A DNA stretch of 61,714 nt, taken from the NCBI GenBank assembly GCA_021811565.1, contig JAJZOL010000147.1:1-61714 (forward strand). Direction: 5' to 3'. Source of the stretch: a bacterium. GTDB lineage: Bacteria > Armatimonadota > Chthonomonadetes > Chthonomonadales > CAJBBX01. Positions within the stretch are counted from its first letter, which is position 1, and every line of letters starts with the position of its first letter. Positions 13,495-53,558 of the stretch are shown in pieces. The position numbers and the translations under genes were made by a program. The notes under the pieces were generated by a model, which was not told the DNA's origin, made no database searches, and worked only from the letters and a program-made list of their open reading frames with translations.

Positions 13495-13564
13495 CATTAA
13501 GACAGGAACCCTCGCCACGCGTGGAACATCTCCTAAGGGCCCAAGGCTTTACATCAACTAATAC

Positions 13565-15013
13565 ATGAAAAACAAGATCATCTCCTGGGGAGTGCCCATA
13601 GGCGTCACGCTGACTTGTGTCGCCATTCTTTTGGGTCTTATAATGCATGAACAGCGGATAAACAATTTCCCTGAACGCCCGCTAAACGTGGAGCCGGCAA
13701 AGACTATTCAAAAACAAAACGTGGCGCAAACCGCCGCTCCCACATCCTCGACTCCATCCACCACGGCGACAACGGCTCCAACTCAGCAATCATCCTATAA
13801 ATTCACCGGGGTGAATGTTGCGAATCTACCAGGCTCCTGGCCCTGCTTTCGCGGCCCAAACCACGATGATATCAGCCCGGAAAAAGTGGCGTTATCGTCT
13901 GACTGGCAAAAAAATCCTCCTCATCTCCTGTGGTCGATAAATTTAGGGGAGGGATACGCCTCGGCGGCAATTGAGCATGGCAAGGTCTATGTGCTGGATT
14001 ACGACGAAGCGCACCAGGAGGATGCCCTACGTTGTCTTTCCCTTGCAAACGGTCAGGAGATATGGCGGCAATCCTATCCCGATCCTATCAAGCGCAATCA
14101 CGGAATGAGCCGAACCATTCCGGCGGTTTCAGGAAAATACGTGGTTTCCCTCGGACCGCAATGCCACGTGTTATGCGCGGATGCCGACACGGGGAAAATA
14201 TTCTGGCAGATGGACTTGGTCAAACAGTTTGGAACCACTGTGCCGCAATGGTACGCGGGACAATGCCCCCTCATCGATGGGAATAATGTTATCCTCGCTC
14301 CGGCGGGAAATGTCCTGATGATCGCGGTGAACCTTGCGACAGGGAAAATCGTCTGGCGAACGCCGAATCCGATGGGATGGCAAATGACGCACTCCTCGAT
14401 CGCGAAAGCCACCTTCCATAATCAATCCATTTATGTCTATTGCGGCAGCGGTGGAGCGGTTGGCGTCTCGGCGAAGGATGGCTCCATACTCTGGCAAACG
14501 ACGGACTGGAAGGTGAGCACAGCCACCGTCCCCACTCCCATCTGCCTTCCCGATGGTCGTATCTTCTTCACGGGGGGATACGGTGCGGGCAGCGCGATGA
14601 TGCAAATGACCGAGCAGGGCGGCAAATTCTCAATCCAGACGCTTTATCGATTAACTCCCGACGTTTTCGGATCTGATCAGCAAACGCCTATTTTATACAA
14701 AGGTTATATTTACGGCGTGCGATCCGGTGGGGAGCTTGTCTGCCTTAATCTTAACGGGCAACCCCAATGGACCAGCGGAGCCACTCGACGTTTCGGGCTT
14801 GGACCCTATCTAATAGCCGACGGACTGATTTTTATCATGAATGATTCGGGAGTACTCACCATGGTGCAAGCCACGCCGACAGCTTATCACGAACTGGGAG
14901 ATATTCAAATCTTGAGCGGTCCGGATTCCTGGGGTCCAATGGCAATCGCGGGTGGCTTGCTAATCGCAAGGGACCTGAACAGAATGGTCTGCTTGGATAT
15001 GCGCTTACACTAA
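13565..15013 (+). CDS. Membrane-anchored PQQ-type beta-propeller protein (quinoprotein-like)
   Basis: 482 residues. N-terminal signal anchor at about 7-27 (GVPIGVTLTCVAILLGLIM), then a Thr/Pro/Ala-rich linker to about residue 75, then a beta-propeller opening with WPCFRGPNHDDISPE, the common start of Planctomycetes/Armatimonadota PQQ-like repeat proteins. Repeats such as GKVYVLDYDEAHQEDALRC, GKIFWQMDL, GKIVWRTPNP and GSILWQTTDW mark successive blades. The domain would lie outside the cytoplasmic membrane. Such proteins may bind PQQ as dehydrogenases or be structural propellers like BamB; the cofactor ligands cannot be confirmed. It opens a plus-strand group that continues with an NHL protein and Fe-S proteins, which supports a redox role. 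Confidence 0.85.
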   Translation: MKNKIISWGVPIGVTLTCVAILLGLIMHEQRINNFPERPLNVEPAKTIQKQNVAQTAAPTSSTPSTTATTAPTQQSSYKFTGVNVANLPGSWPCFRGPNHDDISPEKVALSSDWQKNPPHLLWSINLGEGYASAAIEHGKVYVLDYDEAHQEDALRCLSLANGQEIWRQSYPDPIKRNHGMSRTIPAVSGKYVVSLGPQCHVLCADADTGKIFWQMDLVKQFGTTVPQWYAGQCPLIDGNNVILAPAGNVLMIAVNLATGKIVWRTPNPMGWQMTHSSIAKATFHNQSIYVYCGSGGAVGVSAKDGSILWQTTDWKVSTATVPTPICLPDGRIFFTGGYGAGSAMMQMTEQGGKFSIQTLYRLTPDVFGSDQQTPILYKGYIYGVRSGGELVCLNLNGQPQWTSGATRRFGLGPYLIADGLIFIMNDSGVLTMVQATPTAYHELGDIQILSGPDSWGPMAIAGGLLIARDLNRMVCLDMRLH

Positions 15014-15087
15014 GCAGCCGATTGAATTGCAATATAACTCGATAAATTATTTTTTTTCTTGACAATTTGAATTTTTCGAAGATAATA

Positions 15088-15175
15088 CAGGTAAATGCAA
15101 AATTCGAATTTCAAGTATTTCACCGAGAGTGAAAGGAGCAAAAGTGGCCTCATTTTCTGACTTTTGCATTTACCT
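15088..15175 (+). repeat. Dispersed 88-nt element with conserved inverted ends, copy A
   Basis: The ends form a perfect 14-nt inverted repeat, AGGTAAATGCAAAA and TTTTGCATTTACCT. The element matches the minus-strand copy at 30307-30395: 29 of the first 33 positions and 16 of the last 17 are identical, while the middle differs. It sits 85 nt upstream of the NHL gene. It could be a small palindromic mobile element, an operator or a structured RNA leader. No target-site duplication is obvious. Confidence 0.75.
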
Positions 15176-15260
15176 AAATAGATAGGACAATGATCAACGT
15201 ATCGCTCACACCTTGTTTCCGGGGTTTGGATGTGATGTTTTGCACATTCCGTGATAAGCC

Positions 15261-16208
15261 ATGAAATGGCGATTGATATTACTCGGCTTAGTTGCCATTC
15301 TCTTTGGATTATGGGGGATCGTCTTATGGAAAATCGCCCCCCAATCAACCACTGCTCTGGATTCATTCCAAGCCATAAGAAACGTCCCCGAAAAGTGGCT
15401 TACATGGAAGGAGGTCGCCTCTTACCCGTTGCCAGCCTCCGGAGTTAACGATATTGCGGTTGACGGAAAAGGAAGGATATACGCGGCATGCGACAAGGGC
15501 TTGCTGATCTTCACACGGAAGGCTCAGCAGCCAAATGTGGTTCCTACTCCCGAGCCTCCTATGTGCGTTGCACTGCAGGATGATAAAATATATATGGGCA
15601 TAAAAGATCATATTGAAGTCATCTCGCGATCCGCGAACCAAATCGTAAACTGGGCGCCGCCCGCGATCAATGCACAAATAATAAACATTGCAGTGAATAA
15701 ATCATACGTTTATGCAGCGGATGCAGGAAATAAGCTCGTATGGAAATATGATATTCGGGGAAACATTGTTGGAACGATTGGGCGCCCCGATCCCGCTAAA
15801 GATATCATGGGGTTCATATTACCCAGCCCGCACTTGGACATTGCGATCCAAAGAGATGGCAACCTGTACGTAAACAATCCCGGGCGCCATATGGTGGAGG
15901 CATTCACTCCGAATGGTAGATTGATTTCATCGTTCGGGGGGGGAGGGAACTCGATTAATAAGTTCTGCGGATGCTGCAACCCTATTCGTATCGCCTTGCT
16001 ACCATCCGGGGATATCGTAACTTCGGAAAAAGGGTTGCCGAGAGTGAAGGTGATCAAACCGAATGGATCATTGGATAGCGTGATTTTGGGTCCCAAGGCT
16101 TTTTCACAAAACACCGATGATATCCCTATTGCCACCGATGCGCAGGGAAACGTATATATCGCGAACAATTACACAAAGCAACTGAACGTATACGCCAGGG
16201 ATAATTGA
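15261..16208 (+). CDS. Exported NHL-repeat beta-propeller protein
   Basis: 315 residues. The N-terminus (MKWRLILLGLVAILFGLWGIVLW) is a signal anchor. The rest is built of NHL/SMP-30-like repeats: VNDIAVDGKGRIYAAC, INIAVNKSYVYAADAGNKLVW, HLDIAIQRDGNLYVNNPGRH and IPIATDAQGNVYIANNY. A short CGCC stretch (residues about 236-239, NKFCGCCNPIRIA) is unusual in such a propeller and could bind metal or form a disulfide. It precedes two Tat-exported Cys-rich proteins by 52 nt and probably belongs to the same operon. It could be a scaffold or electron-transfer partner outside the membrane; no enzymatic motif is seen. There is a weak Shine-Dalgarno. Confidence 0.82.
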   Translation: MKWRLILLGLVAILFGLWGIVLWKIAPQSTTALDSFQAIRNVPEKWLTWKEVASYPLPASGVNDIAVDGKGRIYAACDKGLLIFTRKAQQPNVVPTPEPPMCVALQDDKIYMGIKDHIEVISRSANQIVNWAPPAINAQIINIAVNKSYVYAADAGNKLVWKYDIRGNIVGTIGRPDPAKDIMGFILPSPHLDIAIQRDGNLYVNNPGRHMVEAFTPNGRLISSFGGGGNSINKFCGCCNPIRIALLPSGDIVTSEKGLPRVKVIKPNGSLDSVILGPKAFSQNTDDIPIATDAQGNVYIANNYTKQLNVYARDN

Positions 16209-16260
16209 CAGAGACACACATCTCCCGGCGGGACAAATATCTGAAAGATTTAGGCGCGAC

Positions 16261-16491
16261 ATGAATAATGATGTAAAAAACAGGCGGGAATTCCTTACGG
16301 GAATCATTCGCGGGGCGATGGCAACCGCCATGGTTGGAGGAATCGGAGCGATGGTTTTTCGCAAATCACGCGGATGCCCCGAACTTCCCATCTGCACGCA
16401 ATGCGGTTATTACGGCGATTGTGACCTTCCACGAGCCTTGGAAACTCGTCAAGCGGAAAGGATCAAAACAGATGGCCGCCACCGACAATAA
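16261..16491 (+). CDS. Small Tat-signal cysteine-containing protein
   Basis: 76 residues. NRREFLTGIIRGAMATAMVGGIGAMV is a twin-arginine signal (RREFL) with a weakly hydrophobic helix. The short mature part keeps three cysteines, CPELPICTQCGYYGDC counted as C-x6-C-x2-C with one more at the end of the run, so it may bind an Fe-S cluster or metal. The last 20 nt overlap the next Tat gene, so both are surely co-translated. It is not a remnant of a longer frame: the reading frame is complete with its own stop. I recall no characterised family; it may be a small exported subunit of the neighbouring ferredoxin complex. Confidence 0.7.
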   Translation: MNNDVKNRREFLTGIIRGAMATAMVGGIGAMVFRKSRGCPELPICTQCGYYGDCDLPRALETRQAERIKTDGRHRQ

Positions 16492-17044
16492 GAAATCCAG
16501 ACGAGAGTTTATCGCTGATGGAATCCGGACAGGAGGGTTGATTATTGCTAGCGGAGCCATCGGAGCCCTTGCCGCCAGTTCGCATGCCGAAGACACGGTC
16601 TGGCAGATCGATCCCTATAAATGCACGAATTGCGGGCTTTGCGCCACATCCTGCGTTTTGGATCAATCGGCTGTCAAGTGCATGCACGCCTTCGCCATGT
16701 GCGGTTATTGCAATTTGTGCTCCGGAATGTTGCGTCCCGAAAGAGTGGGCAACACCATTGAAGCGGAAAACGTGCAATGCCCGACTTTCGCGATCCAACG
16801 ATCGTATGTCGAGAACCCGTATTTTCAGTATGTCATCGATGAAAACCTCTGTATTGGATGCGCGAAATGCTCCAAGGGATGCAATGCCTTCGGAAACGGT
16901 TCCCTGTTCATGCAGATTCGACATGATCGATGCCTGAACTGCAACCAGTGTTCCATAGCGGAAGTCTGTCCGGCGCAGGCGATTGTGCGAGTTCCCGCCA
17001 GCAAACCGTATCTGCTTAAATCCAAGATCAAACAGGACGGTTAA
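16472..17044 (+). CDS. Tat-exported polyferredoxin-like protein
   Basis: 190 residues from ATG 16472; a longer frame from 16334 is rejected because it would run through the preceding small gene out of frame and hide the Tat signal. The N-terminus KKSRREFIADGIRTGGLIIA is a Tat signal. The mature part contains CTNCGLCATSC, CGYCNLCSG, CIGCAKCSKGC and CLNCNQCSIAEVCPAQAI, enough cysteines for three to four [4Fe-4S] clusters in a DMSO-reductase-beta/NrfC-like layout. It would fold in the cytoplasm with its clusters and cross via Tat, as typical periplasmic ferredoxins do. With the NapH/NosR-like membrane protein 8 nt downstream it likely forms an electron conduit on the outer face of the inner membrane. 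Confidence 0.85.
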   Translation: MAATDNKKSRREFIADGIRTGGLIIASGAIGALAASSHAEDTVWQIDPYKCTNCGLCATSCVLDQSAVKCMHAFAMCGYCNLCSGMLRPERVGNTIEAENVQCPTFAIQRSYVENPYFQYVIDENLCIGCAKCSKGCNAFGNGSLFMQIRHDRCLNCNQCSIAEVCPAQAIVRVPASKPYLLKSKIKQDG

Positions 17045-17051
17045 TCATTTC

Positions 17052-18344
17052 ATGTTTCAAAAATTAACACCTCCGTTTTTTTTGCTTCAGATAACAACGC
17101 CTCCCCAAAAGAACCCTCCGCCGGATTTCACTACAGGCTACCAATATCCCGTCACGATAAATCCCCCTCCCCGGGCGGAGTTGTTCACACGCATTGACAT
17201 GGTGATGTTGGTCACGCTCATGCTAATGACCGCCTACTTCATTCTTTACAAGCGAAGCCGTAAAGAGGTGAGACTTATCTCTCTTTTCTCTCTCTTGTAT
17301 TTCGGATTTTATCGGCATGGTTGCGTATGCAGCGTGGGAAGTATTCAAAACGTGGCGATGGCGATTTTTAATAACGGCTATGCGCTGCCACTGTCCGTCG
17401 GGGTTTTCTTCATTTTACCACTCCTATTCGCGCTCTTCTTCGGACGGGTTTTTTGTGCGGCGGTGTGCCCTCTTGGTGCGGCGCAAGATTTAATTCTGCA
17501 AAAAGCGAAACGAGTTCCGATTTGGCTGGACGAGACGCTTAGCGTTATTCCCTACGTCTACCTAGGGCTGGGAACCCTATTCGCTGCGACTGGAACTGTT
17601 TTTATCATCTGTGAATACGATCCCTTCGTGGCGTTTTTCCGCTTGAACGGCGGGGCGATGATGGTAACCTTGGGTATCATAATCCTTTTCCTGTCCACAT
17701 TCATCGGAAGGCCCTATTGCCGTTATCTATGCCCATACGGTGTCCTTTTGCGGTGGGCGGCGGCATGGTCGAAATGGAAGGTGCATGTGGCTCCGGATAA
17801 ATGCATCCAATGTCATCTTTGCGCGGAATCTTGTCCTTTCAACGCCATGCGAATGCCTGTTCCCGAAGAGGTTCGTCCGTCCAGAAAATCCACTCGTGCG
17901 GTATTATCAAGGGTGCTCTGGCTTATCCCGCTCCTGGCGATCCTTGGCGGAATATCCGGGCGATTGGCTAGCCCTCTCCTTTCCCATGTGGATATAACGG
18001 TGCAAACTGCGGATCGTGTTTGGAAGGAGAGACACGGATTGGTTCATGGAGAGACTTTGGAGAGCCAGGCTCACCGTGCAAACCAAATCCCTGATAATGT
18101 TCTTTACGCCAAGGCGGCGAAGATACGCAGAACATACGCCCTATATACGACTATTTTCGGCGTATGGCTTGGATTAGTGTTTGGATTGAAACTGTTTTTT
18201 ATTACAACCCGACGTAGATGGGATGATTATGACGCCGATCCCGCCGCCTGCGTGGCTTGCGGTAGATGTTTTGGGTATTGCCCTGCGGAAGCCAATGGGA
18301 AAAATGTTGAGGAGGGGGTATACATTAAAGGGAACCTCAAATAA
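17052..18344 (+). CDS. NapH/NosR-type membrane ferredoxin
   Basis: 430 residues from ATG 17052; an upstream in-frame start at 16983 overlaps the previous gene and is unlikely. Membrane helices at roughly 45-65, 75-95, 120-140, 170-195 and 215-235, with the family motifs FGRVFCAAVCPLGAAQDL and GRPYCRYLCPYGVLLRW (CxxxCP) at the membrane edge. Two ferredoxin motifs follow: CIQCHLCAESCPFNAM and, near the C-terminus, CVACGRCFGYCPAEANG. No FMN_bind domain is seen, so it is nearer NapH than full NosR. Members pass quinol electrons to periplasmic partners. There is no nitrous-oxide or nitrate reductase gene in view; the likely partners are the Tat ferredoxin and propeller proteins just upstream. Confidence 0.88.
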   Translation: MFQKLTPPFFLLQITTPPQKNPPPDFTTGYQYPVTINPPPRAELFTRIDMVMLVTLMLMTAYFILYKRSRKEVRLISLFSLLYFGFYRHGCVCSVGSIQNVAMAIFNNGYALPLSVGVFFILPLLFALFFGRVFCAAVCPLGAAQDLILQKAKRVPIWLDETLSVIPYVYLGLGTLFAATGTVFIICEYDPFVAFFRLNGGAMMVTLGIIILFLSTFIGRPYCRYLCPYGVLLRWAAAWSKWKVHVAPDKCIQCHLCAESCPFNAMRMPVPEEVRPSRKSTRAVLSRVLWLIPLLAILGGISGRLASPLLSHVDITVQTADRVWKERHGLVHGETLESQAHRANQIPDNVLYAKAAKIRRTYALYTTIFGVWLGLVFGLKLFFITTRRRWDDYDADPAACVACGRCFGYCPAEANGKNVEEGVYIKGNLK

Positions 18345-18441
18345 ACGCGGTCAATTGCAGAATAAAACGTAAATTGCTTCACCATGTGCGCTCGCATTTC
18401 GCCATCCAGTGCGAACCTTGTAATTTCCTAAGGAGAAGAAA

Positions 18442-21400
18442 ATGCGCTTCATTTCATTATTCCTGGGTCTTTTGCTATTTATTACGTTAATGGTCCATAC
18501 CACCGCTGCTGCGAATAAGAACCAAGGCAATTCCAACCCGGTAACAATCGCAAACGCCGAGACTCATCCAAACCTGCTCCCCAATTTCGGTTTCATGGAT
18601 TTGGTTAGGCATGGCGTTCCGAATGGATGGACGTGGCAATCGCGCAACACCGTATCCAGTATCACCCCGGTGGATACGCGCTCCGAGTTCGGGATGAGAT
18701 CTCTTCGGATTAAAAACGCGACACCTTTTGGAGCGAACGTATACGGAACGATGTGGACCACTAACCCCATCCATTTAACCCCTGGCACGCCTTACACAAT
18801 GAGTTGCTGGGTGAGCATCTCTCAATCAACCGTAGCGTGGATTGGCGGCGGGGATGATTGGAGGGTCAGACTCTATTTTCCGAACACCTATGGCAAATGG
18901 AAACAGTTTAGCCTTACATTCACTCCAAGCCCTTCAGAGGCGGAATTCACGTTTCGCATAAACACAGACGGTCAGACGAATGGCTTTCTTCTGCGCGACC
19001 CAAAAATCGAGGAGGGAAACGTCGTCACACCAGACCCTCCCGCAACGCAAATCGATCATCCATTGTTCCTCCCAACCCCTATGCCCGCGATAAACACGGA
19101 TAACCCATGGACTTTTCAAGCCTATCTCTATTCTTCCAAACCTATGAAAAATGCCATTTTAACAGCGATGTTAAAGTACGATGGCAAGGTTGTGCAACAG
19201 AAGTCAAAAGTTAATGCACCATTGGGTTTATCCCTTGTTACCATCAAGGAAGACGCCGTCCGCGTTCCGCATGCATCGGCGAACATGCAAATCAGCATTA
19301 ACAACAGTGAAGGCGCCGATCGCGCCACGTCCAATACGGTTATTGAGTTGTTCTCAGCCAACGCAACCAGACAAGCACTCTTATCCATACAAAACGCCGT
19401 TCCCTCCCTTTCTAAAATGATGCACAAGGCGGAAAAAATGAAGCTGGATGTAAGCTACCCTCGCGTGGCGGTCACCATTCTCCAACACCTCACGGGATAC
19501 GCGTTGGCGATGCTCGATCATAATCAGATTCAGCGCGCCACGTCTATGCTGGATCAGTTGACACCGATGGAACGTAAAACCAAGCGCACTTTCCAGTTAA
19601 TGCTCGCTCGAAAACTGCGATATCCGCCGACACCCTATTATGTGACTGGCAAGATATCCATCAAAAAAGCCACTTTTTACGCAAGCACCAAGGTGCCGGA
19701 AGAACGTGGAGTGTCCGTGCGTCCGGTCAACTTCACAGGCTGGGGAGCATTCGACCAAGTGCGCAAGGATCTCAATATCCTGCCGGATTACGGAGCGAAT
19801 ATCATCCAAGTGGAAATTGGTCCCAGTGCAGTATTCCCATCGGAGGGAGTTGTGTCCGATAGTGCTGTCCAGGATATGATAAGATTGCTGAAACAGGCTG
19901 CGAAAGCGAATGTGGCGGTAAATATACTGATCAGTCCGCATTACATGCCTGAATGGGTGATGAAGAAATACCCGGATATGAACGTGCAAAAAGAGGGATT
20001 CTTGCAATATTCCCTTTTTGCGCCGGAGGGAAGGGAAATCCTGCGCAAATTCCTGCAGTATGTCATCCCTCAACTGAAGGGTTATCCTGCCCTGCATAGT
20101 TTCTGTTTAAGCAACGAGCCAACAAACGCCCAAAGCCCGAATGATCCCAACGAGCGGCGCGATTGGCAAGAGTGGCTGCAAAAACATTATTCAAGTATCG
20201 GAGAATTGAACCAATTATGGGGGACGAATTATACGGATTTCGACGCCATACCGGTTCAAAACACGCTCAACCCACCTCCGCCATCGCCTATATGGTATGA
20301 TTTCGTGCGTTTCAACCAGGAGTTTTTCGCCGGATGGCATCGCTACCTGGCGGACACGATCCATTCCATCGCACCCAATGTTCCCGTCCATGCGAAAGCG
20401 ATGACTTGGACCATGCTTGGTGCGCCAGAGGTGCGTTACGGTGTGAACGCGCAATTATTCGGCGATTTCAGTCAAATCAATGGCAACGACTCCGCTGATT
20501 TCTACAACAATGGAGTCGGCGAATGGGCGGACGGTTGGACGTTGAACAACATGGCTTACGATCTTCAGCATTCCGTTTTAGACGCCCCCATCTTCAATAG
20601 CGAGAACCATGTGATGCCGGATAGAGGCGAGTACCCCGTGCCGCCTCAGCATCTTATCACGGACTTGTGGCAAAGCGCAATTCATGGCGAGGGTGCGACA
20701 ACATTATGGTGCTGGGAGGAGACGTTCGATCCGAAAGCGGATTTTTGGGGGCTTGAAATGGAGCGTCCGGCGTGCGTCCAGGCGATAGGCGATACCGGTT
20801 TGGATTTAATGCGCCTAGCCCCGCAGGTTGCAAAATTCCAGAATATGAAGCCACAGGTGCAGATTCTATTCACCACTGCAGCGAGAGTGTGGGACGGAAA
20901 CGACTTCAGCGATTGCCTCAACAAGGTTTGCACCGCACTTGATTTCACAGGCATGAAAATAGGCTATGTCACGGAAAGGGATCTTGTGGAAGGGAAAACG
21001 CCAATCGCACCGCTTCTGATCGTTCCGGATATACGGCATATCTCGAACGCGGCATTGCAAACTCTTGATAAATACAAAGGTCATATCCTCGCTTTTGGCG
21101 GCAAGGATATATTCGGATATGATGACTACAACCATCCCCGTGAAGTCCCTGCATACCATACGATAGCATTTACGAGAGAACAGACCACGGACATAGACAT
21201 ATGGAAAAGGCTCATCCCCTATCTGACATCCGAAAAACTCAACCCAACTATAAAAATTACTGATATAAACGGCAAGAGCCAGTGGGGCGTGGAATGGCTT
21301 ACGGTAAAATACCATGGGTCGATATTGGTAAACGCAGTCAATTACCTTCAAAATCCGACAACCATAAAGGTCTGGTCGGGCAAAAAGAGTCTCTTCTGTC

Positions 21401-21489
21401 GAAATATACTGCCAACCACACCAACCGGATATGTGAAAACAATCCATCTGAACCCGATGCAACCAGTATTGCTTGAGTTAAAGAATTAA
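18442..21489 (+). CDS. Secreted GH42-like (beta-galactosidase-type) glycoside hydrolase
   Basis: 1015 residues, with AAGGAG 7 nt before the ATG. Signal peptide at 1-23 (LFLGLLLFITLMVHTTAAA). Residues about 45-190 form a carbohydrate-binding-like beta-sandwich (LRIKNATPFGANVYG, WKQFSLTFTPS). The catalytic TIM barrel starts near YGANIIQVEIGPSAVFPSEG; the likely acid/base is the Glu of CLSNEPTNAQ and the likely nucleophile the Glu of FNSENHVMPDRGEYP, positions that fit clan A glycosidases such as GH42. A C-terminal amidotransferase-like alpha/beta domain (LLIVPDIRHISNAALQTL) is also usual for GH42 trimerisation domains. It should act on beta-galactosides or related sugars outside the cytoplasm. 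Substrate is not certain. Confidence 0.85.
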   Translation: MRFISLFLGLLLFITLMVHTTAAANKNQGNSNPVTIANAETHPNLLPNFGFMDLVRHGVPNGWTWQSRNTVSSITPVDTRSEFGMRSLRIKNATPFGANVYGTMWTTNPIHLTPGTPYTMSCWVSISQSTVAWIGGGDDWRVRLYFPNTYGKWKQFSLTFTPSPSEAEFTFRINTDGQTNGFLLRDPKIEEGNVVTPDPPATQIDHPLFLPTPMPAINTDNPWTFQAYLYSSKPMKNAILTAMLKYDGKVVQQKSKVNAPLGLSLVTIKEDAVRVPHASANMQISINNSEGADRATSNTVIELFSANATRQALLSIQNAVPSLSKMMHKAEKMKLDVSYPRVAVTILQHLTGYALAMLDHNQIQRATSMLDQLTPMERKTKRTFQLMLARKLRYPPTPYYVTGKISIKKATFYASTKVPEERGVSVRPVNFTGWGAFDQVRKDLNILPDYGANIIQVEIGPSAVFPSEGVVSDSAVQDMIRLLKQAAKANVAVNILISPHYMPEWVMKKYPDMNVQKEGFLQYSLFAPEGREILRKFLQYVIPQLKGYPALHSFCLSNEPTNAQSPNDPNERRDWQEWLQKHYSSIGELNQLWGTNYTDFDAIPVQNTLNPPPPSPIWYDFVRFNQEFFAGWHRYLADTIHSIAPNVPVHAKAMTWTMLGAPEVRYGVNAQLFGDFSQINGNDSADFYNNGVGEWADGWTLNNMAYDLQHSVLDAPIFNSENHVMPDRGEYPVPPQHLITDLWQSAIHGEGATTLWCWEETFDPKADFWGLEMERPACVQAIGDTGLDLMRLAPQVAKFQNMKPQVQILFTTAARVWDGNDFSDCLNKVCTALDFTGMKIGYVTERDLVEGKTPIAPLLIVPDIRHISNAALQTLDKYKGHILAFGGKDIFGYDDYNHPREVPAYHTIAFTREQTTDIDIWKRLIPYLTSEKLNPTIKITDINGKSQWGVEWLTVKYHGSILVNAVNYLQNPTTIKVWSGKKSLFCRNILPTTPTGYVKTIHLNPMQPVLLELKN

Positions 21490-21557
21490 TCGCCGCATGA
21501 GAAAAGCCAAGCATTCCTATGGTTCCGCATACCAAAGCGTGATATACTATGATTGTC

Positions 21558-21589
21558 GATGAATCGGTATGCCTTTACACCGATTCGTC
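21558..21589 (+). other. Stem-loop in the gap between the GH42-like and PQQ genes
   Basis: GATGAATCGGT (21558-21568) can pair with ACCGATTCGTC (21579-21589) through a 10-nt loop, with one G-U pair. No U-tract follows, so it is not a clear intrinsic terminator. It could be a processing or 5' leader structure for the PQQ gene that starts at 21654. Confidence 0.4.
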
Positions 21590-21653
21590 CATCTTATGGA
21601 AGGATATTTTTAATCGGTTTAATTCCTAAATACGGAATGATTATCAGCGAAAT

Positions 21654-23678
21654 ATGAATTCGGATCCTGTCCACAGTAACTCCCCACACAATAACCCATG
21701 GATGATCGCAGCTTATCGCACCGCCAGAGCGATGGAGATTTTTTGCGTTCTCATGCTAGCCATCCTCTTGGCTAATTCAATACGCGCACGAATTAATGAT
21801 CCCAATAACCCAGTCAAGTTGGAGAATCTCCTTGTCCAACTTTCACAAAACCCGAAGGATGAAAATCTTAAAAAGGAGATTCGACAACTGGATGTGACCA
21901 TCCGGAAAAACTATTTTCGTAGCCAGTTTATCGCAAAATACGGGTTGTATCTTCTGATCGGAGCGTTGGTGATTTATCTCCTTAGCTTGGAATATCTGCG
22001 CTCAGGGACCAAATCAACGCCGTTGCCCAATGTGAATATCGCCAAGGAGCCATGGTTGAACCCCGCCTTAAGCCGCAGATCGATTTACGCATTGGGCGGA
22101 ATTATGGGAGGCGTTCTTCTATCGTTAATCGTTTTATCCAGACATGATGTAACCTATGCTTATATTCACAATGATCTTTTTACGGCTTCCAACACGGCGT
22201 CCGCGCCTGCATCACCTCCACCCCCAATGGTTCAACAATTAGCTTCGACACCTGCAACAATCCCCACGGCGTCTACCGTTGCAACCGCACCAACCCCATC
22301 AAATGCACCCGCTAACGCCAACACAGCCGCAGGCACGCCATTGCTTGGCGCGGCAGCCATCACTGCAAGTTCCTCGCCGGCGTTACGCCCCGTTACACCC
22401 ACAGCAATTACACCGATTTCACCTAGTGCTCAAACCTCCGTCCCAACGCCGTCCGCCGCCACAACGAATGTTGCGACAGTCTCCATCACCCCTGCATACC
22501 CTTCCGATTGGAGTAATCAGTGGAATATGTTTCGGGGCCCGAGCGGAACAGGAATATGCACTCTCAGCGACATCCCCCTGCAATGGGATGGCACTCAGAA
22601 CCAAAACATTCTCTGGAAAGCCCCCATCCCCCTGCCGGGTTGGAGTTCGCCAATCGTCTGGAAAAAAAACATCTTTTTCACGGGCGGAGACAAGACCCAG
22701 CGGGTGGTTTATTGCTATTCCCTTAGCTACGGGTCTATTAACTGGCAATACAAGGTGCATGTGAAGGGATGCAATACGGTTCCTCAAGTGGGGGATGACA
22801 CAGGATTTGCGGCGCAAACCATGGCGACCGATGGAAAACGAGTGTACGCCATTTTCCCAACAGGAGAATTGGTCTGTCTTGACTTCACTGGCAAGCCCTT
22901 ATGGCTCAAATTCCTTGGCACCCCGGATAACGAGTACGGCATGGCTGCGTCGTTATTGCTCTGCGAGGGAAAGCTGATTGTGCAATCCGATCAGGGGAGC
23001 GATTCCACCGACAAGAAATCCTCAATCATTGCGTTCGACGACAAAACGGGCAAACAGTTATGGCGAACCCCGCGACCGGTCGGAAGTTCCTGGGCGACTC
23101 CCATCGCCATCAAGGTTAATGGCAAAACCGAAATCATCACCGCAGGAAACCCTTGGGTTATCGCATACGATCCCGCAACAGGCAAGGAGATATGGCGATG
23201 CGAATGTCTCGGCGGCGAAGTTGCTCCATCGCCCATCTTCTCCGGCCCCTTCGTTGTGGTTAGCAACCAAGGAGCGAATATCGTGGCGATCCGACCAACA
23301 GGCAAGGGCGACATCACCAAAACCGGTATCGCATGGATGGGAATGGATGGTTTGCCGGATATCGTAAGTCCTCTTAGTGACGGAAAACGCGTTTACCTTT
23401 TTACAACCCAAGGACAGATAACCTGTTACGACACAATTACAGGCAAGGAGTTGTGGACCCATCAGATGACGGATAATATCAAAGCGTCCCCCACGCTAGT
23501 AGGGAATAGTATCTATCTTTTGGATACGAAAGGGGTCATGCATATCCTAGCCGCAGGGGATCAATTTAACGAGACGGGTAAGAACCCCGTTGGCGAACGA
23601 ACATACTCTTCGCCGGCATATGTGGATAATAAGATCATTATTCGAGGGGAAAAGGATCTCTTTTGCATAGGCAAATAA
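21654..23678 (+). CDS. Multi-pass membrane protein with C-terminal PQQ-type beta-propeller
   Basis: 674 residues. Hydrophobic helices at about 25-45 (MEIFCVLMLAILLANSI), 102-120 (YGLYLLIGALVIYLLSL) and 145-163 (YALGGIMGGVLLSLIVL) come first. A linker rich in Ala, Thr, Pro and Ser spans about 180-275. The propeller begins with WNQWNMFRGPSGTG-like sequence (read here as NQWNMFRGPSGTGICTLSD) and has blade motifs GKQLWRTPRPVG, GKEIWRCECLGGEV and GKELWTHQM. The propeller would lie outside the inner membrane on a flexible stalk. It resembles the protein at 13565 but has more membrane segments. It ends 52 nt before the NuoEF fusion, so the two may be co-transcribed. Confidence 0.85.
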   Translation: MNSDPVHSNSPHNNPWMIAAYRTARAMEIFCVLMLAILLANSIRARINDPNNPVKLENLLVQLSQNPKDENLKKEIRQLDVTIRKNYFRSQFIAKYGLYLLIGALVIYLLSLEYLRSGTKSTPLPNVNIAKEPWLNPALSRRSIYALGGIMGGVLLSLIVLSRHDVTYAYIHNDLFTASNTASAPASPPPPMVQQLASTPATIPTASTVATAPTPSNAPANANTAAGTPLLGAAAITASSSPALRPVTPTAITPISPSAQTSVPTPSAATTNVATVSITPAYPSDWSNQWNMFRGPSGTGICTLSDIPLQWDGTQNQNILWKAPIPLPGWSSPIVWKKNIFFTGGDKTQRVVYCYSLSYGSINWQYKVHVKGCNTVPQVGDDTGFAAQTMATDGKRVYAIFPTGELVCLDFTGKPLWLKFLGTPDNEYGMAASLLLCEGKLIVQSDQGSDSTDKKSSIIAFDDKTGKQLWRTPRPVGSSWATPIAIKVNGKTEIITAGNPWVIAYDPATGKEIWRCECLGGEVAPSPIFSGPFVVVSNQGANIVAIRPTGKGDITKTGIAWMGMDGLPDIVSPLSDGKRVYLFTTQGQITCYDTITGKELWTHQMTDNIKASPTLVGNSIYLLDTKGVMHILAAGDQFNETGKNPVGERTYSSPAYVDNKIIIRGEKDLFCIGK

Positions 23679-23730
23679 AAATGATCAATAACCACCCAAT
23701 GGAATCGTCCGTCCGCAGGAATACACGGAG

Positions 23731-26205
23731 ATGAGAAACCTTATCGGAGCCTCCCTGCCAATTCTGAATAAGAAGGGGCTGAGAAAAAACAGCATACAAA
23801 GCACGAGTGATGCGGATAATATTAATCCCATTGCATATGTGGAGGAGCTGGTTGAGACCACGGGGCGCGGAACGGAGGCACTGTTGCCCATTCTTCAGGC
23901 GATACAGACTAAATTCCGATATCTGCCTGAAGAGGCATTACGTCACGTGTGTCGGATCACGCAAATCAGACCGGCGGATATTGATGGGGTTGCGAGTTTC
24001 TATTCCCAGTTTCGCAGAAAGCCTGTAGGAAGATTCACAATCAACGTTTGTCACGGAACGGCTTGTCATGTAAAAGGCTCCGGATTAGTGCATGAGGCGC
24101 TCGCTCGTTACTTGGAGTTAAACCCTGGCGAGGATACCGATAAGGCGGGTCTTTTTACATTACAGCGTGTGTTTTGCCTGGGATGCTGCACGTTGGCTCC
24201 GGTGATGCAAATTGAGGGCGTCACATATGGTCATCTTTCCACGGAAAATGCGGATCGCGCCTTGAAGGATTTCCTGAAGCTCGATTCCGAATCGGGCGTT
24301 GTCAAGGCTGCCGATAAGAGATTCCCGAACCATTTCGATATGGCTGAGATTCGCGTTGGCATGGGATCATGCTGCATCGCCATAGGAAGCCAGAAGGTGC
24401 AAAACGTTATCGAGGAGACCATCCGTCACTATAACATCCCCGCCGTTATCAAACCCGTCGGATGCATTGATGCCTGTCATCTTGCTCCAACCGTTGAGAT
24501 CATCCCGCATTATTCCCCTAACTCCATGCCGGAAAGCGTTGCTGAAAGTGAAAACGAAGGCGGAAATTCAATCCTCTTTACAAAGGTGACCCCGGAAAAA
24601 GCGGAGAAAATCATCCGAACCCATCTTAAACCTCAAGGCATATTCCCTCGAATGAAGGAGATATACGCAGAGGCGCTGGACAAGTTCGATGTGGATGAAG
24701 GACCTGTCACGCGCTATTCCTCGGAAGTGCGCGAGGGGGCGATCTGTGATTTTCTCGGTGGGCAGGTGCATATTGCCACCGAGAGTTGCGGCTCGCTTCA
24801 ACCGTTGAATTTAAAAGAGTATCGCATACGGGACGGTTTTCAGGCGTTGGAGGAGGTGTTACAATCATCCGACCCCGAATCGGTGATAGAGACCGTTACG
24901 GAATCCGGCTTGCGTGGGCGGGGAGGCGCTGGATTCAGAACCGGTCTGAAATGGAGACGAGTGCATGAAGCACTTGGAGACGAGAAATATGTTGTGATGA
25001 ACGGAGACGAGGGTGACCCTAGCGCATTTATGGACCGCATGCTATTGGAGTCCTATCCTTTTCGTATTTTGGAAGGGATGATAATCGGAGCTTTCGCCGT
25101 CGGCGCACACGAAGGAATTCTCTACATCCGCGCGGAATACCCTCTTGCAACTCGAATAATGCGAGAGGCGATTAGAATTTGCGAGGAGAACAACCTGCTC
25201 GGCGAGAGAATACTGGATTCCAATTTCACGCTACGACTCAAAGTGATGGAAGGTGCGGGCGCATTCGTTTGCGGCGAGGAGACGGCGTTGCTTTCGAGTA
25301 TCGAAGGCAAGCGGGGTGAGCCGAGAATTCGTCCGCCCTACCCCGCCGAATCAGGATTGTGGGGAAAACCAACACTCATCAATAACGTGGAGACCTATGC
25401 GATGGTTCCATGGATCATTCGCCATGGCGCTAAGGCGTACGCGGCGATAGGCACGGATACCAGCAAGGGCACCAAGGTTTTTTCGCTGACAGGGAAAATC
25501 GCACGGGGTGGATTGATAGAGGTTCCCATGGGAACGAGCTTGCGGCATATCGTTGAAGTTATCGGCGGCGGAACCCCGAATGGCAAATTCAAAGCGGTGC
25601 AAATAGGAGGACCGTCCGGAGGATGCATTCCAGCCGATTTAGCCGATATCCCCATAGACTACGAGGCGCTGCAAAGCGTCGGGGCTTTTGTGGGAAGCGG
25701 CGGGTTAGTGGTTTTAGATGAGCACGATTGCATGGTGGACATCGCGCGATATTTTCTCAACTTCACTCAAAACGAGTCTTGTGGCAAATGCACCTTCTGT
25801 CGCGTGGGGACACGAAGGCTGTTGGAGATGTTGGATAAAATAGCCACTGGCAAGGGGAAGCCGGGGGATATCGATAAATTGGAGGAACTCGCGTTGCAGG
25901 TGAAGCAATCCAGCCTCTGCGGGTTGGGACAATCCGCTCCCAATCCTATCCTCTCCACTTTGCGATATTTTCGTGACGAATACGAGGCGCATATTCAAGG
26001 GCGATGCCCTGCGGGAAAATGCAAGGACTTGGTCCATTACCGAATCGGAGACAAATGCAACGGATGCACGAAATGCTCCCAAATATGCCCAGTGAATGCC
26101 ATACCCATACGACCTTATGAAAAACACTCCATTGACGACTCCCTTTGCACGAGATGTGATTCCTGCAGGCAAATTTGCCCGGTGGAAGCCATCCATGTGG
26201 AATAA
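23731..26205 (+). CDS. NuoE-NuoF-ferredoxin fusion, NADH-dehydrogenase-type diaphorase subunit
   Basis: 824 residues. Domain order: a NuoE/HydC-type thioredoxin-like [2Fe-2S] domain (about 30-175; C107, C112, C149, C153), a second [2Fe-2S] thioredoxin-like domain as at the start of HydB/HndC (about 200-300; C214 or C215, C245, C249), the NuoF flavoprotein (about 365-735; GLRGRGGAGF at 393-402 for FMN/NADH, NGDEGDP at 424-430, [4Fe-4S] from C684, C687, C690, C730), and a C-terminal 2[4Fe-4S] ferredoxin (C776, C779, C782, C786 and C806, C809, C812, C816). It should oxidise NADH and pass electrons on, as in soluble hydrogenases, formate dehydrogenases or Nfn-like complexes. No NuoG/HydA partner is nearby. 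Confidence 0.93.
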   Translation: MRNLIGASLPILNKKGLRKNSIQSTSDADNINPIAYVEELVETTGRGTEALLPILQAIQTKFRYLPEEALRHVCRITQIRPADIDGVASFYSQFRRKPVGRFTINVCHGTACHVKGSGLVHEALARYLELNPGEDTDKAGLFTLQRVFCLGCCTLAPVMQIEGVTYGHLSTENADRALKDFLKLDSESGVVKAADKRFPNHFDMAEIRVGMGSCCIAIGSQKVQNVIEETIRHYNIPAVIKPVGCIDACHLAPTVEIIPHYSPNSMPESVAESENEGGNSILFTKVTPEKAEKIIRTHLKPQGIFPRMKEIYAEALDKFDVDEGPVTRYSSEVREGAICDFLGGQVHIATESCGSLQPLNLKEYRIRDGFQALEEVLQSSDPESVIETVTESGLRGRGGAGFRTGLKWRRVHEALGDEKYVVMNGDEGDPSAFMDRMLLESYPFRILEGMIIGAFAVGAHEGILYIRAEYPLATRIMREAIRICEENNLLGERILDSNFTLRLKVMEGAGAFVCGEETALLSSIEGKRGEPRIRPPYPAESGLWGKPTLINNVETYAMVPWIIRHGAKAYAAIGTDTSKGTKVFSLTGKIARGGLIEVPMGTSLRHIVEVIGGGTPNGKFKAVQIGGPSGGCIPADLADIPIDYEALQSVGAFVGSGGLVVLDEHDCMVDIARYFLNFTQNESCGKCTFCRVGTRRLLEMLDKIATGKGKPGDIDKLEELALQVKQSSLCGLGQSAPNPILSTLRYFRDEYEAHIQGRCPAGKCKDLVHYRIGDKCNGCTKCSQICPVNAIPIRPYEKHSIDDSLCTRCDSCRQICPVEAIHVE

Positions 26206-28327
26206 GGCGCCGGTTATCACATTCATCGCATTTTTCGCCATGCTTCTAGCCGAACCATCATTCGCGATTGACAGGGTGATCATACAATACGCCCCAAATC
26301 ACGCTGTCAACATCTTTTCACCCAATAAAGCCTTGGGTGCCGCATTGGACGGTCAGGACGAGGGGGAAGTTTCCAGAATGCTCTCCCCCTACAATATAAG
26401 GCGGATGCTTGAAGCAGGTTTTCATACCGTCAGCTACAGGTTAAGAACGGAACTGGCGGTCGAGGCATGGCATTGGAATCCAATCGGAAAATGGAGCGAT
26501 CCCAGGCATCATCAGGGATACTGGACATCCTCCGCCGATCCGCACGGGTTTATCGATGTTTGCTGGGGATACCGTCTCCCTCGAAGGGGCGACACGTTTG
26601 ATCAAGCCAATAACGACGGATATTCGCGAATAGACGATGGCGATATTGGTTCTTTTTGGAAGAGCGATCCCTATCTCGACCGTTATTTCACCCATGAAAG
26701 CAACTCCCTGCACCCTCAGACGGTTGTGATCGACTTTGGGGAGAAGAAACCAATCGACGCCATTCGCATTCGATGGGGCGAGCCATGGGCGACGGAGTAC
26801 TCCGTGCAATATTGGAGCGGAGATGACAGCGTAGCGACCGTCGAACACCCGATTGGGGAATGGTGCGTTTTCCGACATGGGGACATCCACCACAGCCATG
26901 GCGGGGACGTTTTTATCCATCTCACCCCCGAACCGATCCGAGCTCGTTTCATCCGAATACGGATGACGGAGAGCTCACATACGGCGCCGAAAAGGTCTAA
27001 GGATATCCGGGATCGACTAGGTTATGCGATACGGGAGATATACATTGGAGAGATCAAAAAAGGCACATTCCATGACCTCGTCAAACACGATGTCAATAAC
27101 CAAAAGCAGACTGTGATATATGTCTCTTCCACGGATCCGTGGCATAGGGAAAAGGATAGGGACAAACATACCGAACAACCCGGTTTCGACCGTATTTTCC
27201 ACTCAGGTCTCACTGGCGGGACCCCGATGATGCTTCCCGTTCCCCTGTTATATGACACTCCGAATAACTCATTGGCGGAACTCAGGTATTTGAAAGCGAA
27301 GGGATACCGTTTCGGACCCATTGAGATGGGCGAAGAACCGGATGGTCAATACGTTACTCCGGAGGATTACGCTGCTCTATACGTTCAATGGAGTCGGATT
27401 ATAAAAAAGGAGTTTCCCTCCCTGAAACTAGGTGGTCCCTGTTTCCAAACCACGGAGGTTGATGACGCCGCATGGCCCCATGATATATGGAGAAAACCCT
27501 GGTACGTTCGCTTTTTGTCATATCTAAGAAATCATCACGTTCTTAAGTATTACCAGTTTTTCTCGTTTGAATGGTACCCGTTTGATGAGACACGAGTGGA
27601 TTCCGCTCCGCAACTCGCATTTGAGCCCTCTCTGCTCTACGGGGTGATTACGCGCTTGAGGCAACAGGGGTTATCGAACGCAATTCCATGGTACATCACG
27701 GAATACGGCTATTCAGCGTTTTCCGGCAAACCCGAGGTGAAAATTCAAGGGGCGTTGATGAATGCGGATATCGTGGGACAGTTCTTAACCCTTGGCGGCA
27801 AACGTACATATCTCTACGGTTACGAACCGAACTCCCTCATTGAGGAGTCTCCGGGAGCTTGGGGAAACAATATGCTCATCGAGGCGGATGAGGAAGGTAA
27901 GGCGAAATACAATCTGGCTACCTTTTGGGGTGCCTGGCTGCTAACTCATCAATGGACTTTCCCTGATTCAAAAAATAAGCTGTTTTATGCGAGTTCCAAT
28001 ATCTTAAATACGGAAGGACAGAAAGTCGTAACCGCTTATCCGCTGCTTCGCAACGACGGAGAATGGTCCGTTTTACTTATCAATAAGGATCCATCCAATG
28101 AGCATGCAATTCAACTGGAACTGCTGAATCAAGCAAACAAACACATCGCCAAACCGAAAGGACGGTGGGTTGTTTACAGCTTTTCGCGGGAACAATACCA
28201 TTGGAAGGAGGATGGTTCAAACGGGCGCCCAATTGAAAGCCATCCCCCTATTCAAAGCTACGTCAACCAACCTGAAACCCTTACTTTACCGCCATATTCC
28301 CTTGTGGTGGCGAGAGGAAAGTTTTAA
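26195..28327 (+). CDS. Secreted glycosidase-like protein with discoidin-type and TIM-barrel regions
   Basis: 710 residues from ATG 26195, which overlaps the NuoEF stop by 11 nt and is preceded by GGTGGAAG; a longer frame from 26096 lies inside NuoEF and lacks a signal peptide. MWNKAPVITFIAFFAMLLAEPSFA is a signal peptide. Residues about 120-290 look like an F5/8-type C (discoidin) beta-sandwich (QTVVIDFGEKKPIDAIRIRW, ARFIRIRMTES). A TIM-barrel-like region follows with FGPIEMGEEPDGQYVTPEDY and, about 130 residues later, IPWYITEYGYSAFSG; these Glu residues could be acid/base and nucleophile of a clan A glycosidase (GH39-like order). Family and substrate are not certain. The C-terminus is a beta-sandwich. 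Confidence 0.72.
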   Translation: MWNKAPVITFIAFFAMLLAEPSFAIDRVIIQYAPNHAVNIFSPNKALGAALDGQDEGEVSRMLSPYNIRRMLEAGFHTVSYRLRTELAVEAWHWNPIGKWSDPRHHQGYWTSSADPHGFIDVCWGYRLPRRGDTFDQANNDGYSRIDDGDIGSFWKSDPYLDRYFTHESNSLHPQTVVIDFGEKKPIDAIRIRWGEPWATEYSVQYWSGDDSVATVEHPIGEWCVFRHGDIHHSHGGDVFIHLTPEPIRARFIRIRMTESSHTAPKRSKDIRDRLGYAIREIYIGEIKKGTFHDLVKHDVNNQKQTVIYVSSTDPWHREKDRDKHTEQPGFDRIFHSGLTGGTPMMLPVPLLYDTPNNSLAELRYLKAKGYRFGPIEMGEEPDGQYVTPEDYAALYVQWSRIIKKEFPSLKLGGPCFQTTEVDDAAWPHDIWRKPWYVRFLSYLRNHHVLKYYQFFSFEWYPFDETRVDSAPQLAFEPSLLYGVITRLRQQGLSNAIPWYITEYGYSAFSGKPEVKIQGALMNADIVGQFLTLGGKRTYLYGYEPNSLIEESPGAWGNNMLIEADEEGKAKYNLATFWGAWLLTHQWTFPDSKNKLFYASSNILNTEGQKVVTAYPLLRNDGEWSVLLINKDPSNEHAIQLELLNQANKHIAKPKGRWVVYSFSREQYHWKEDGSNGRPIESHPPIQSYVNQPETLTLPPYSLVVARGKF

Positions 28328-28334
28328 TCGTAGG

Positions 28335-30239
28335 CTATTTGATCTGTATGAAAGTAACTGAATGAGCGGGCAATTCGAGATGATCCAGCATTATAGAAGA
28401 TCGGATCGTCACAGGTTTCACCTCATCCGGCTCTCCCGGTATGTTAAGAGCCTCCAACGTTGGTCCGTCTATCCTCCATCCCGTTGAGCTTATCTTGGAG
28501 CCCATACCAACCGCGTGAATCGCCACGGTTTGCGCGGAATCAGGCGAATAGTTCACTAACGCAACGTTTATCGCTCCAGTTTTGGGATCTTTCGCCGCCA
28601 CCCCGTCCACCAACGGGGCCCCGCTCCATTTCATGGGAATTAAATCCCCCTCCATATGCTTGCGGTATAATTCGAGCACATACCCGATCGGGTTCATGGA
28701 GGCGTAATTTTTTGTGGTGTTGATAGCGCCAAGGACATTCACGGTCTGAGCCCAGTTCGCCATGGTGACATAACCTGCGGAACGGAGCAGTTCGTTCATT
28801 CCTCTCGCCACCGCGATTGCGTCTCCAAGGCAGAAAAATCCGCCATTGCCGCCCAGTCCCCATTCATCAATCGCCAAACGCACTTTTTTAGCATCCGGGG
28901 CGGCGGCGTTAAGACGTGGTTTGAAATCATTCACGATCCCGCGAATACCCTCCGCCACCTCATCGGAATATGAAATAAACCGACTTTCGTATTCAGCGGG
29001 ATTGGCAGGATTGGACGGCGCAGCGTAAAAATGCCCGCTTATTAGATTCATGTATCCGGAGCATTCCGGAAAAATCACGTCATTCCAACCCCCGGGCGCT
29101 CCAACAACGATCACCCTGATATTTGGATCAACCTTTCGCATTTCGCGAACATACTCGTTGTTACGGAGCGCGTATTGCCGAACCGGGACGTGACCAAGCT
29201 GCCAATCTCCGAACATCTCGTTGCCAATCCCCCACCAACTGACATCATACGGCGCGGGATGTCCATTTCGGGCGCGGACCGCACCCCACTTGGTATTTAC
29301 CGAACCTGTGAAATACTCCACTTCGTCCGCGGCGTTTCGCACATTGCCAAGTCCGGTGTTCACCGCCACATAAGGCTGACAGCCCACTCTTCGGCAGAAA
29401 TCCATAAATTCATCCGCGCCAAAGTCGTTATCCTCGACGTTGTTCCAGGCGCGGTCCCATCGCGGAGGACGTCGGTCCCTGGGGCCGACCCCATCCCTCC
29501 AATCGTATCCAGATACGAAATTCCCCCCTGGCCAGCGCATGATTGGAGGGTCCAACTCCTTGATTAGCTTCAGAGTGTCGGCTCGCATCCCGTCCACATT
29601 ATCGGCTGGCATAAGGGAAAGGCATCCAATCCACAGATATGTAGGATGATCCACTGTGACGTATAACGATGCATCGTTCGTGGTGGCTCCGGCGGTAAAG
29701 GAGAAATCGTACTTGTGATATTGCGACCCCACGGAATTCAGCGTGATTGTTTTCTCATTATCCACCGCATCCCCCCATTTCACGATCACGTTAACTGAGG
29801 ATGGACTTTGAATATCGGCGAGTATCGCATAGCCGACGTATTTTCTCCCCTTCACCAAGCCAACGCTATCTTGAAGGATACCAAATGGAGCGTCTCCTTT
29901 TTGCAACCATATCGCCATGCAGTGATCCCCCGCGTAAGCGCCAGCAGGATCGAGCTTCACTTCCCCGGTCACGCTTTCTGGGTTGTATATGTTCCAATAT
30001 TTCCCTGGGGGAAGAAGGAATTTTCGATCCATAAGCATCTCCGACCAAACCCCTTGCTGGATGCAATGATCCAAATGCTCGATGAATTGCCCGTAAAGCA
30101 GAGGATTTATGGGGATTTCGGATGATTTCGCTTCAATCGTCGCCTCGGGGATAGATGTTTGCGCTTGCAACCCAGGGGCGAGAATAAAAAGCGCAATGAG
30201 GATCAGACTAATCGCAGACCAGCGCGCGTAACTACGCAT
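28335..30239 (-). CDS. GH51-type alpha-L-arabinofuranosidase, secreted
   Basis: 634 residues from ATG 30239, which has GGAGG 9 nt upstream; the frame extends to 30290 but without such a site. Signal peptide YARWSAISLILIALFILAPG. The N-terminal beta region (PINPLLYGQFIEHLDHCIQQ) and the barrel motif MRWPGGNFVSGYDW, then the acid/base Glu in WWGIGNEMFGDWQ and the nucleophile Glu in LAIDEWGLGG, are all typical of GH51. It removes terminal arabinofuranose from hemicellulose or arabinan. It is convergent with the discoidin glycosidase (7 nt between stops). The dispersed repeat copy B lies in its upstream region, ending 67 nt before the ATG. Confidence 0.93.
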   Translation of the reverse strand: MRSYARWSAISLILIALFILAPGLQAQTSIPEATIEAKSSEIPINPLLYGQFIEHLDHCIQQGVWSEMLMDRKFLLPPGKYWNIYNPESVTGEVKLDPAGAYAGDHCMAIWLQKGDAPFGILQDSVGLVKGRKYVGYAILADIQSPSSVNVIVKWGDAVDNEKTITLNSVGSQYHKYDFSFTAGATTNDASLYVTVDHPTYLWIGCLSLMPADNVDGMRADTLKLIKELDPPIMRWPGGNFVSGYDWRDGVGPRDRRPPRWDRAWNNVEDNDFGADEFMDFCRRVGCQPYVAVNTGLGNVRNAADEVEYFTGSVNTKWGAVRARNGHPAPYDVSWWGIGNEMFGDWQLGHVPVRQYALRNNEYVREMRKVDPNIRVIVVGAPGGWNDVIFPECSGYMNLISGHFYAAPSNPANPAEYESRFISYSDEVAEGIRGIVNDFKPRLNAAAPDAKKVRLAIDEWGLGGNGGFFCLGDAIAVARGMNELLRSAGYVTMANWAQTVNVLGAINTTKNYASMNPIGYVLELYRKHMEGDLIPMKWSGAPLVDGVAAKDPKTGAINVALVNYSPDSAQTVAIHAVGMGSKISSTGWRIDGPTLEALNIPGEPDEVKPVTIRSSIMLDHLELPAHSVTFIQIK

Positions 30240-30706
30240 GAACAAACTCCTCCAATTCGCGAAGATTCTTAGTAATGCGAGCCATTGCAAAAAAAACTAT
30301 CCCTAGAGGTAAATGCAAAATTCAGGCATGTGGCTATTACCGCTCATATCACGTTCTGCAAAAAATACTTGGAAATCGAATTTTGCAATCACCTGCCAAT
30401 GTTTCGATTGTTAGAGGGATATGACAGGAAACCGATCCCATCTTTTCGCAACCAACCCGGTTACTAAAGGATACCGTCGTAAACGGTCATCTGACAAGTT
30501 GGATTATTCCCATGGAGACTCACGGCGAAAAAACGTTATGCTGAAGTATAATAGAGATTAGCCATGGGAATGCCTTCAGAGGCATCCGATTATTTCCGTT
30601 CGGGATGTGGCTCCAGTCGTCTCACTTTTGAATTCCTGTCTCATCGCGCCCAGGCCTCCCCCCATTTTATCGCCCGGCGCTCCATTAAGAACATGGGAGT
30701 ATCAAT
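30240..30706. other. 467-nt divergent intergenic region
   Basis: The gap separates the minus-strand GH51 gene from the plus-strand secreted protein at 30707. It contains the dispersed element copy B (30307-30395). A TATAAT (30547-30552) could be the -10 box of the plus-strand gene, though no good -35 is 16-18 nt upstream, and a small hairpin (ATGCCT, TCAG, AGGCAT at 30570-30585) would lie in its leader of about 150 nt. No gene was found here. Confidence 0.6.
30307..30395 (-). repeat. Dispersed 89-nt element with conserved inverted ends, copy B
   Basis: Read on the minus strand it starts CAGGTGATTGCAAAATTCGA and ends TTTTGCATTTACCT, aligning end to end with copy A at 15088-15175 (88 nt). Both ends are well conserved and the central 40 nt are not. 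In both copies the element points towards a downstream gene and ends 67-85 nt before its start codon (here the GH51 gene). Confidence 0.75.
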
Positions 30707-51761: not shown

Positions 51762-51827
51762 TCTTATAAGGTTGGAATTGTAACAGTCGGCCCGAATCAT
51801 ACACTCACAAAAAGCGAGGATCACGGA

Positions 51828-53138: not shown

Positions 53139-53558
53139 CTAACCCCTTTCTCAATCGAGACGGCTGCGAATTCGCAAATCCGGACACGACATCGCTCATT
53201 TCAAGCTTCGCCATTCGCTCGGATGATGGATTTTGCAGTCGCCTCAAATGCTGAAAGAGGAATGGGAATATTAGAAAAATCTCATTTCAGTGATGCATTT
53301 TTTTGGAAACTCCATCATTTCCCATCCGTATTAGACAGTAGAAACGAAGTTGCTTCAATATTTTTTCCGTAATCATCATCAAGATTGAGCGAAGATGACT
53401 ATGCTTTGGGAAGGTTATATTGACAACTATCAAATTCGAACGATTTTGCCGAAAATAAAATGTAACGAAACCATTCCCGTTTCGTCTATATAATCAAACA
53501 TACTGGAGAATAACCCTATAAAACAATAGCTATTGTCGTATGATGGAGGTTGATTACC
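53139..53558. other. 420-nt intergenic region
   Basis: This stretch has no gene. It contains the possible third copy of the dispersed element (53158-53244). A TATAAT (53489-53494) is 65 nt before the next ATG but lacks a good -35; a TTGACA (53420-53425) lacks a matching -10. GGAGG (53545-53549) is the ribosome binding site of the STN-domain gene. Confidence 0.6.
53158..53244. repeat. Possible diverged third copy of the dispersed element
   Basis: Its length (87 nt) matches copies A and B. The end GGATTTTGCAGTCGCCT resembles GAATTTTGCAATCACCT of copy B, and the start AGACGGCTGCGAATTCG pairs with that end in 12 of 17 positions. The interior is not similar, so the assignment is weak. It lies 20-106 nt after the Gfo/Idh/MocA stop. 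Confidence 0.35.

Follow-up and report, generated by a model that had tools for sequence, protein, structure and literature searches.

An 88-bp repeat upstream of two unrelated genes in an Armatimonadota genome belongs to a high-copy MITE family probably moved by an IS1182-type transposase

The window analyzed here, a 61,714-nt stretch of DNA, contains two similar elements of 88 and 89 nt, each located shortly upstream of a gene, and we asked what kind of element could occupy both positions. The first-pass annotation had left two options, a non-autonomous mobile palindrome or a cis-regulatory module shared by a regulon. The target site duplications, the empty orthologous sites, the copy number and an insertion sequence (IS) that shares the ends, all reported below, support the former, and the regulon module did not hold. 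The features of the window that bear on this question are:

15059..15086, +, predicted sigma-70 promoter TTGACA-16-GATAAT (11/12 consensus; the -10 overlaps the left target site duplication of copy 1)
15084..15087, no strand, left 4-bp target site duplication of copy 1, AATA (the sister genome has an empty site with a single AATA)
15088..15176, +, MITE copy 1 (C-AGGT...ACCT plus terminal base; family model match; orthologous site empty in the sister genome)
15089..15105, +, left inverted end (TIR) of copy 1, AGGTAAATGCAAAATTC
15159..15175, -, right TIR of copy 1, AGGTAAATGCAAAAGTC
15177..15180, no strand, right 4-bp target site duplication of copy 1, AATA
15261..16208, +, gene for an NHL-repeat/SGL-like protein, downstream of copy 1 (PF01436)
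28335..30239, -, gene for an alpha-L-arabinofuranosidase (GH51-type), downstream of copy 2 (PF06964, PF22848)
30302..30305, no strand, right flank of copy 2, TAGG (target site duplication, 3/4 bases matching)
30306..30395, -, MITE copy 2 including terminal base (family model match; orthologous site empty in the sister genome)
30396..30399, no strand, left flank of copy 2, TTGG (target site duplication, 3/4 bases matching)
51766..51769, no strand, empty target site ATAA, filled in the sister genome by a family member (C2:181507-181594)
53176..53244, -, possible degenerate remnant of the element (weak; nhmmer E = 0.0051 only)

The similarity first described between 15088-15175 (+) and 30395-30307 (-) was reproduced, with 29/33 identities over the first 33 nt and 16/17 over the last 17 nt, as were the inverted ends (14/14 positions in copy 1, 12/14 in copy 2) and the distances from element to ATG (85 nt to the NHL gene at 15261, 67 nt to the arabinofuranosidase gene at 30239). 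A BLAST search with copy 1 against the genome that contains the window (G000; 4.0 Mb, 248 contigs, Armatimonadota/Chthonomonadales lineage) returned ~39 further full-length places at E <= 3e-17 and 80-85% identity, together with one weak palindromic echo. A covariance model built from 29 aligned copies gave 138 hits in this genome at E <= 1, ~94 of them strong. The resemblance of the two window copies is thus not a chance match. Sites resembling the TIR at <=3 mismatches numbered 352, compared with 9 for a reversed control, and a pattern combining a perfect right end with a loose left end found no match in this genome, being too strict.

Members of the family are 88-89 bp long and have no coding capacity. 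Their ends follow the consensus CAGGTAATTGCAAAATTC-(~53 nt)-GAATTTTGCAATTACCT(C), the full consensus being CAGGTAATTGCAAAATTCGATTTCCAAGTATTTCACCGAACGTGAAATGAGCGATAATAGCCACATTTCCTGAATTTTGCAATTACCT, usually followed by C, and the 17-bp TIR (AGGTAATTGCAAAATTC) is near invariant among the 29 aligned copies. The impression of a divergent center between preserved ends was correct in that both TIRs lie 3-4% from the consensus and the interior 10%, but the divergence of the center falls largely at subfamily-diagnostic positions; sequence subfamilies exist, for example the G-TTTGAAGG and GCTTTTCAGG types. Unpaired perfect TIRs on contigs C49 and C195 were considered as ISs and proved to be decayed copies. 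At one contig end (G000:C173:13780-13879), a copy is bordered by the same 14 bases in perfect inverted form; the palindromic element probably made the assembly fold back on itself here.

With element bounds set at C-AGGT...ACCT-C, an exact 4-bp direct repeat flanks 57/90 copies, whereas shuffled pairs of flanks average 3.2 matches, with a maximum of 10. The target sites are AT-rich, show slight symmetry (1.41 vs 1.01 pairs of 4) and tend to have G as the next base after the duplicated 4 bp. We also compared 1.4 Mb (with overlaps) of a sister genome of the same genus (G032), in which the region orthologous to window positions 13500-31500 aligns at ~90% identity with two gaps that are exactly the two elements. 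At site 1 the sister genome reads ...GAAGAT-AATA-GATAGG..., with a single copy of the target, and site 2 likewise lacks the element, its junction being slightly changed. The comparison with insertion-free loci that had been suggested thus gave empty sites with continuous flanks at both positions. Among copies in the window's genome with both flanks in the compared part of the sister genome, about 12-13 sites are empty there, most of them at just the offset that a 4-bp duplication predicts, and 4 are shared. The orthologously shared copies lie on C76, C85, C153 and C206, a count that leaves out C61, C12 and C8:25913; for C61 and C12, the alignment shows different insertions in the same region. 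The reciprocal case also occurs, as window positions 51766-51769 are empty where the sister genome has a copy. The five top-scoring copies in that genome share one score, which suggests recent spread of the family there.

ISs with the same ends are present in both genomes, as a 1398-bp element (G000:C211) and a 1427-bp element (G032:C7), alongside a deleted form of 983 bp in G032:C27. Their transposase contains the Pfam domains DUF772 and DDE_Tnp_1. No intact transposase was found in either genome, as all copies seen are broken by stops or partial, and an active source may sit in assembly gaps. Related plasmid proteins of 35-40% identity are annotated as IS1182, including ISUnCu17. The NCBIfam IS1182 and IS5 models match the broken transposases far below their curated cut-offs, so the family name IS1182 rests on the homology to these annotated plasmid proteins. 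The plasmid homologs belong to elements of 1.4-1.5 kb with TIRs GAGNNNNTTGCAAAA. The combination expected of IS1182 members, a 4-bp duplication and ends like GAG...TTGCAAAA, was found for an ISUnCu17-like plasmid copy (flanked by ATGA/ATGA) and for an IS copy in another Armatimonadota genome, G177 (GAGCYAATTGCARATTA ends, AACA/AACA repeats). The IS copies in the two genus members have no flanking repeats, as for G000:C211, or repeats matching at 3 of 4 bases.

In six comparisons of the MITE interior with the IS, derivation was not detected and alignment scores were mostly within those of shuffles, although in one of them only 2/200 shuffles reached the observed score. An interior without detectable IS origin fits the definition of a type II MITE (PMC10969869). 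Other DDE_Tnp_1 proteins, on C119, C156 and C214, were rejected as a source, having no matching TIRs nearby. The DDE genes at L159 (C119), L161 (C214) and L162 (C156) gave domain matches that include DDE_Tnp_1 with a weak DUF4277 match, and DDE_Tnp_1_4.

A cis-regulatory RNA or DNA module common to a regulon, and carried in the leader transcripts of the genes that follow it, was suggested by the placement of both window copies, equally oriented, 67-85 nt ahead of a start codon, by a strong predicted hairpin (DNA strand z ~ -5.6) and by the location of copy 1 directly 3' of a predicted promoter. The common orientation is true of the window pair but not of the family. Using gene contexts from a simple ORF caller, we placed 43 copies of the window's genome between tandem, 24 between divergent and 9 between convergent genes, and only a few copies touch called ORFs; these contexts match the background, taken as the intergenic space in the sister genome (chi-square p = 0.25). 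Over 72 tandem contexts orientation is random, with sense:antisense counts of 18:25 in the window's genome and 14:15 in the sister genome (32 sense and 40 antisense in total), the outcome that the earlier annotation had itself named as favoring a mobile element over regulation. Covariance analysis, also proposed there, found changes on both sides in 0/17 predicted pairs, indicating that the ends are conserved as sequence. Furthermore, identity between the two genomes is 90% over the four shared copies (318/352) and 92% over their 150-bp flanks (1101/1193), giving no sign of constraint; the sister genome lacks the element at each of the loci orthologous to the window sites, and a search of the window found no Rfam family at the gathering threshold. 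We therefore consider a regulon module highly improbable, and the family would appear to have no conserved host role.

The short, intergenic, high-copy elements with palindromic ends could also be REP/RAYT-like or attC-like palindromes moved via single-stranded DNA by an HUH enzyme or a tyrosine recombinase. We give this almost no credence, since 4-bp target duplications together with empty sites that retain one target copy are the marks that staggered cuts leave in DDE transposition, and a DDE transposase is encoded by the IS whose ends are nearly identical. A further possibility is a mobile element with local co-option, for instance to serve as a 5' leader or to supply a portable promoter (TTGCAA-17-TATTAT, minus strand). 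The TTGCAA...TATTAT arrangement is kept in 51/94 copies, MITEs with promoters have been published (PMC10969869), and transcription of the NHL gene probably starts at copy 1. As the promoter hexamers of 15059-15086 are also found in the empty-site sequence of the sister genome, copy 1, directly after this predicted promoter, is probably now the first part of the NHL mRNA leader. Against co-option, the family has no orientation bias and its shared copies no excess conservation, window copy 1 has lost the -10 motif, the promoter strand of both window copies is directed away from the downstream gene, and an element this rich in AT may match the hexamers by chance. On balance, co-option is unlikely.

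Together, these analyses support, at a probability of about 95%, the conclusion that the repeat is a type II MITE, probably mobilized in trans by a DDE transposase of the IS1182 family, and, jointly with this, that the window copies are independent insertions younger than the divergence from the sister species, unless they were exactly lost there. In the mechanism we propose, an ~88-bp non-autonomous DNA element with 17-bp TIRs would be recognized at its ends by an IS1182-family DDE transposase acting in trans, and insertion, for the most part into AT-rich intergenic DNA, would create 4-bp target site duplications. Movement by a transposase of this type is probable, judging from sequence comparison.

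The exact 16-bp end is present in 3/291 genomes of the phylum, namely both genus members and one genome of the same order. The latter (G053) contains a 227-bp element (L111, 1500-1726) whose ends are GAGGTAATTGCAAAATTA and GAGGTATTTGCAAAAGTC and which is probably a further MITE. Outside the phylum, a scan for paired ends found one contig labeled Lentisphaera (L041, 4561-4660) and one labeled Chlamydiae (L043, 2827-2906), which have the identical 16-bp end AGGTAATTGCAAAATT around unrelated palindromic interiors. End sites at <=1 mismatch number 125 in the Lentisphaera genome (G291) and 20 in the Chlamydiae genome (G292); many form pairs spaced by 70-180 bp that enclose unrelated interiors, and 4-bp repeats accompany several of them, which suggests independent MITE families with the same or very similar ends. 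An IS1182-type transposase was not found in the Lentisphaera genome, and only a fragment of one, at 41% identity, was found in the Chlamydiae genome. Three TIR matches in viral contigs were dismissed as chance, as they lie inside phage coding sequence and have no second end. It is conceivable, though doubtful, that the end of one transposase lineage (AGGYAATTGCAAAAYT) independently seeded MITEs with unrelated interiors in Armatimonadota, Lentisphaerota and Chlamydiota, and that some insertions became host leaders or promoters.

The family adds a high-copy, apparently recently active MITE to a poorly studied, uncultured phylum and is tied to an IS group by common ends and target site duplication size. 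It also serves as a warning that repeats of this kind located in leaders can pass for riboswitch-like modules, and it may account for some contig breaks in these assemblies, since several copies lie at contig ends.

By description, the Correia, Chunjie and QMITE elements differ from the present family in both ends and interiors. With these and other bacterial MITEs it shares a length of 50-500 bp, TIRs, target site duplications and intergenic amplification (reviewed in PMC10969869); it is a new high-copy family of a known kind of mobile DNA with an ordinary mechanism. The IS1182 ISUnCu17 group has the end pattern GAGNNNNTTGCAAAA and 4-bp target site duplications, its length is 1.4-1.5 kb, like that of the presumed parent IS, and its transposase is homologous; the MITE lacks coding capacity and has only the ends in common with this group. 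The nearest published case that we found, likened by description, is MITEPye1 of Paracoccus yeei, which has 18-bp TIRs like IS1182-family ends and 4-bp direct repeats (PMC11578231). Like the family described here, MITEPye1 is non-autonomous and intergenic, with IS1182-like TIRs, 4-bp repeats and a predicted long stem-loop, but it occurs in a host of another phylum and at 1-3 copies per chromosome, compared with ~94 here.
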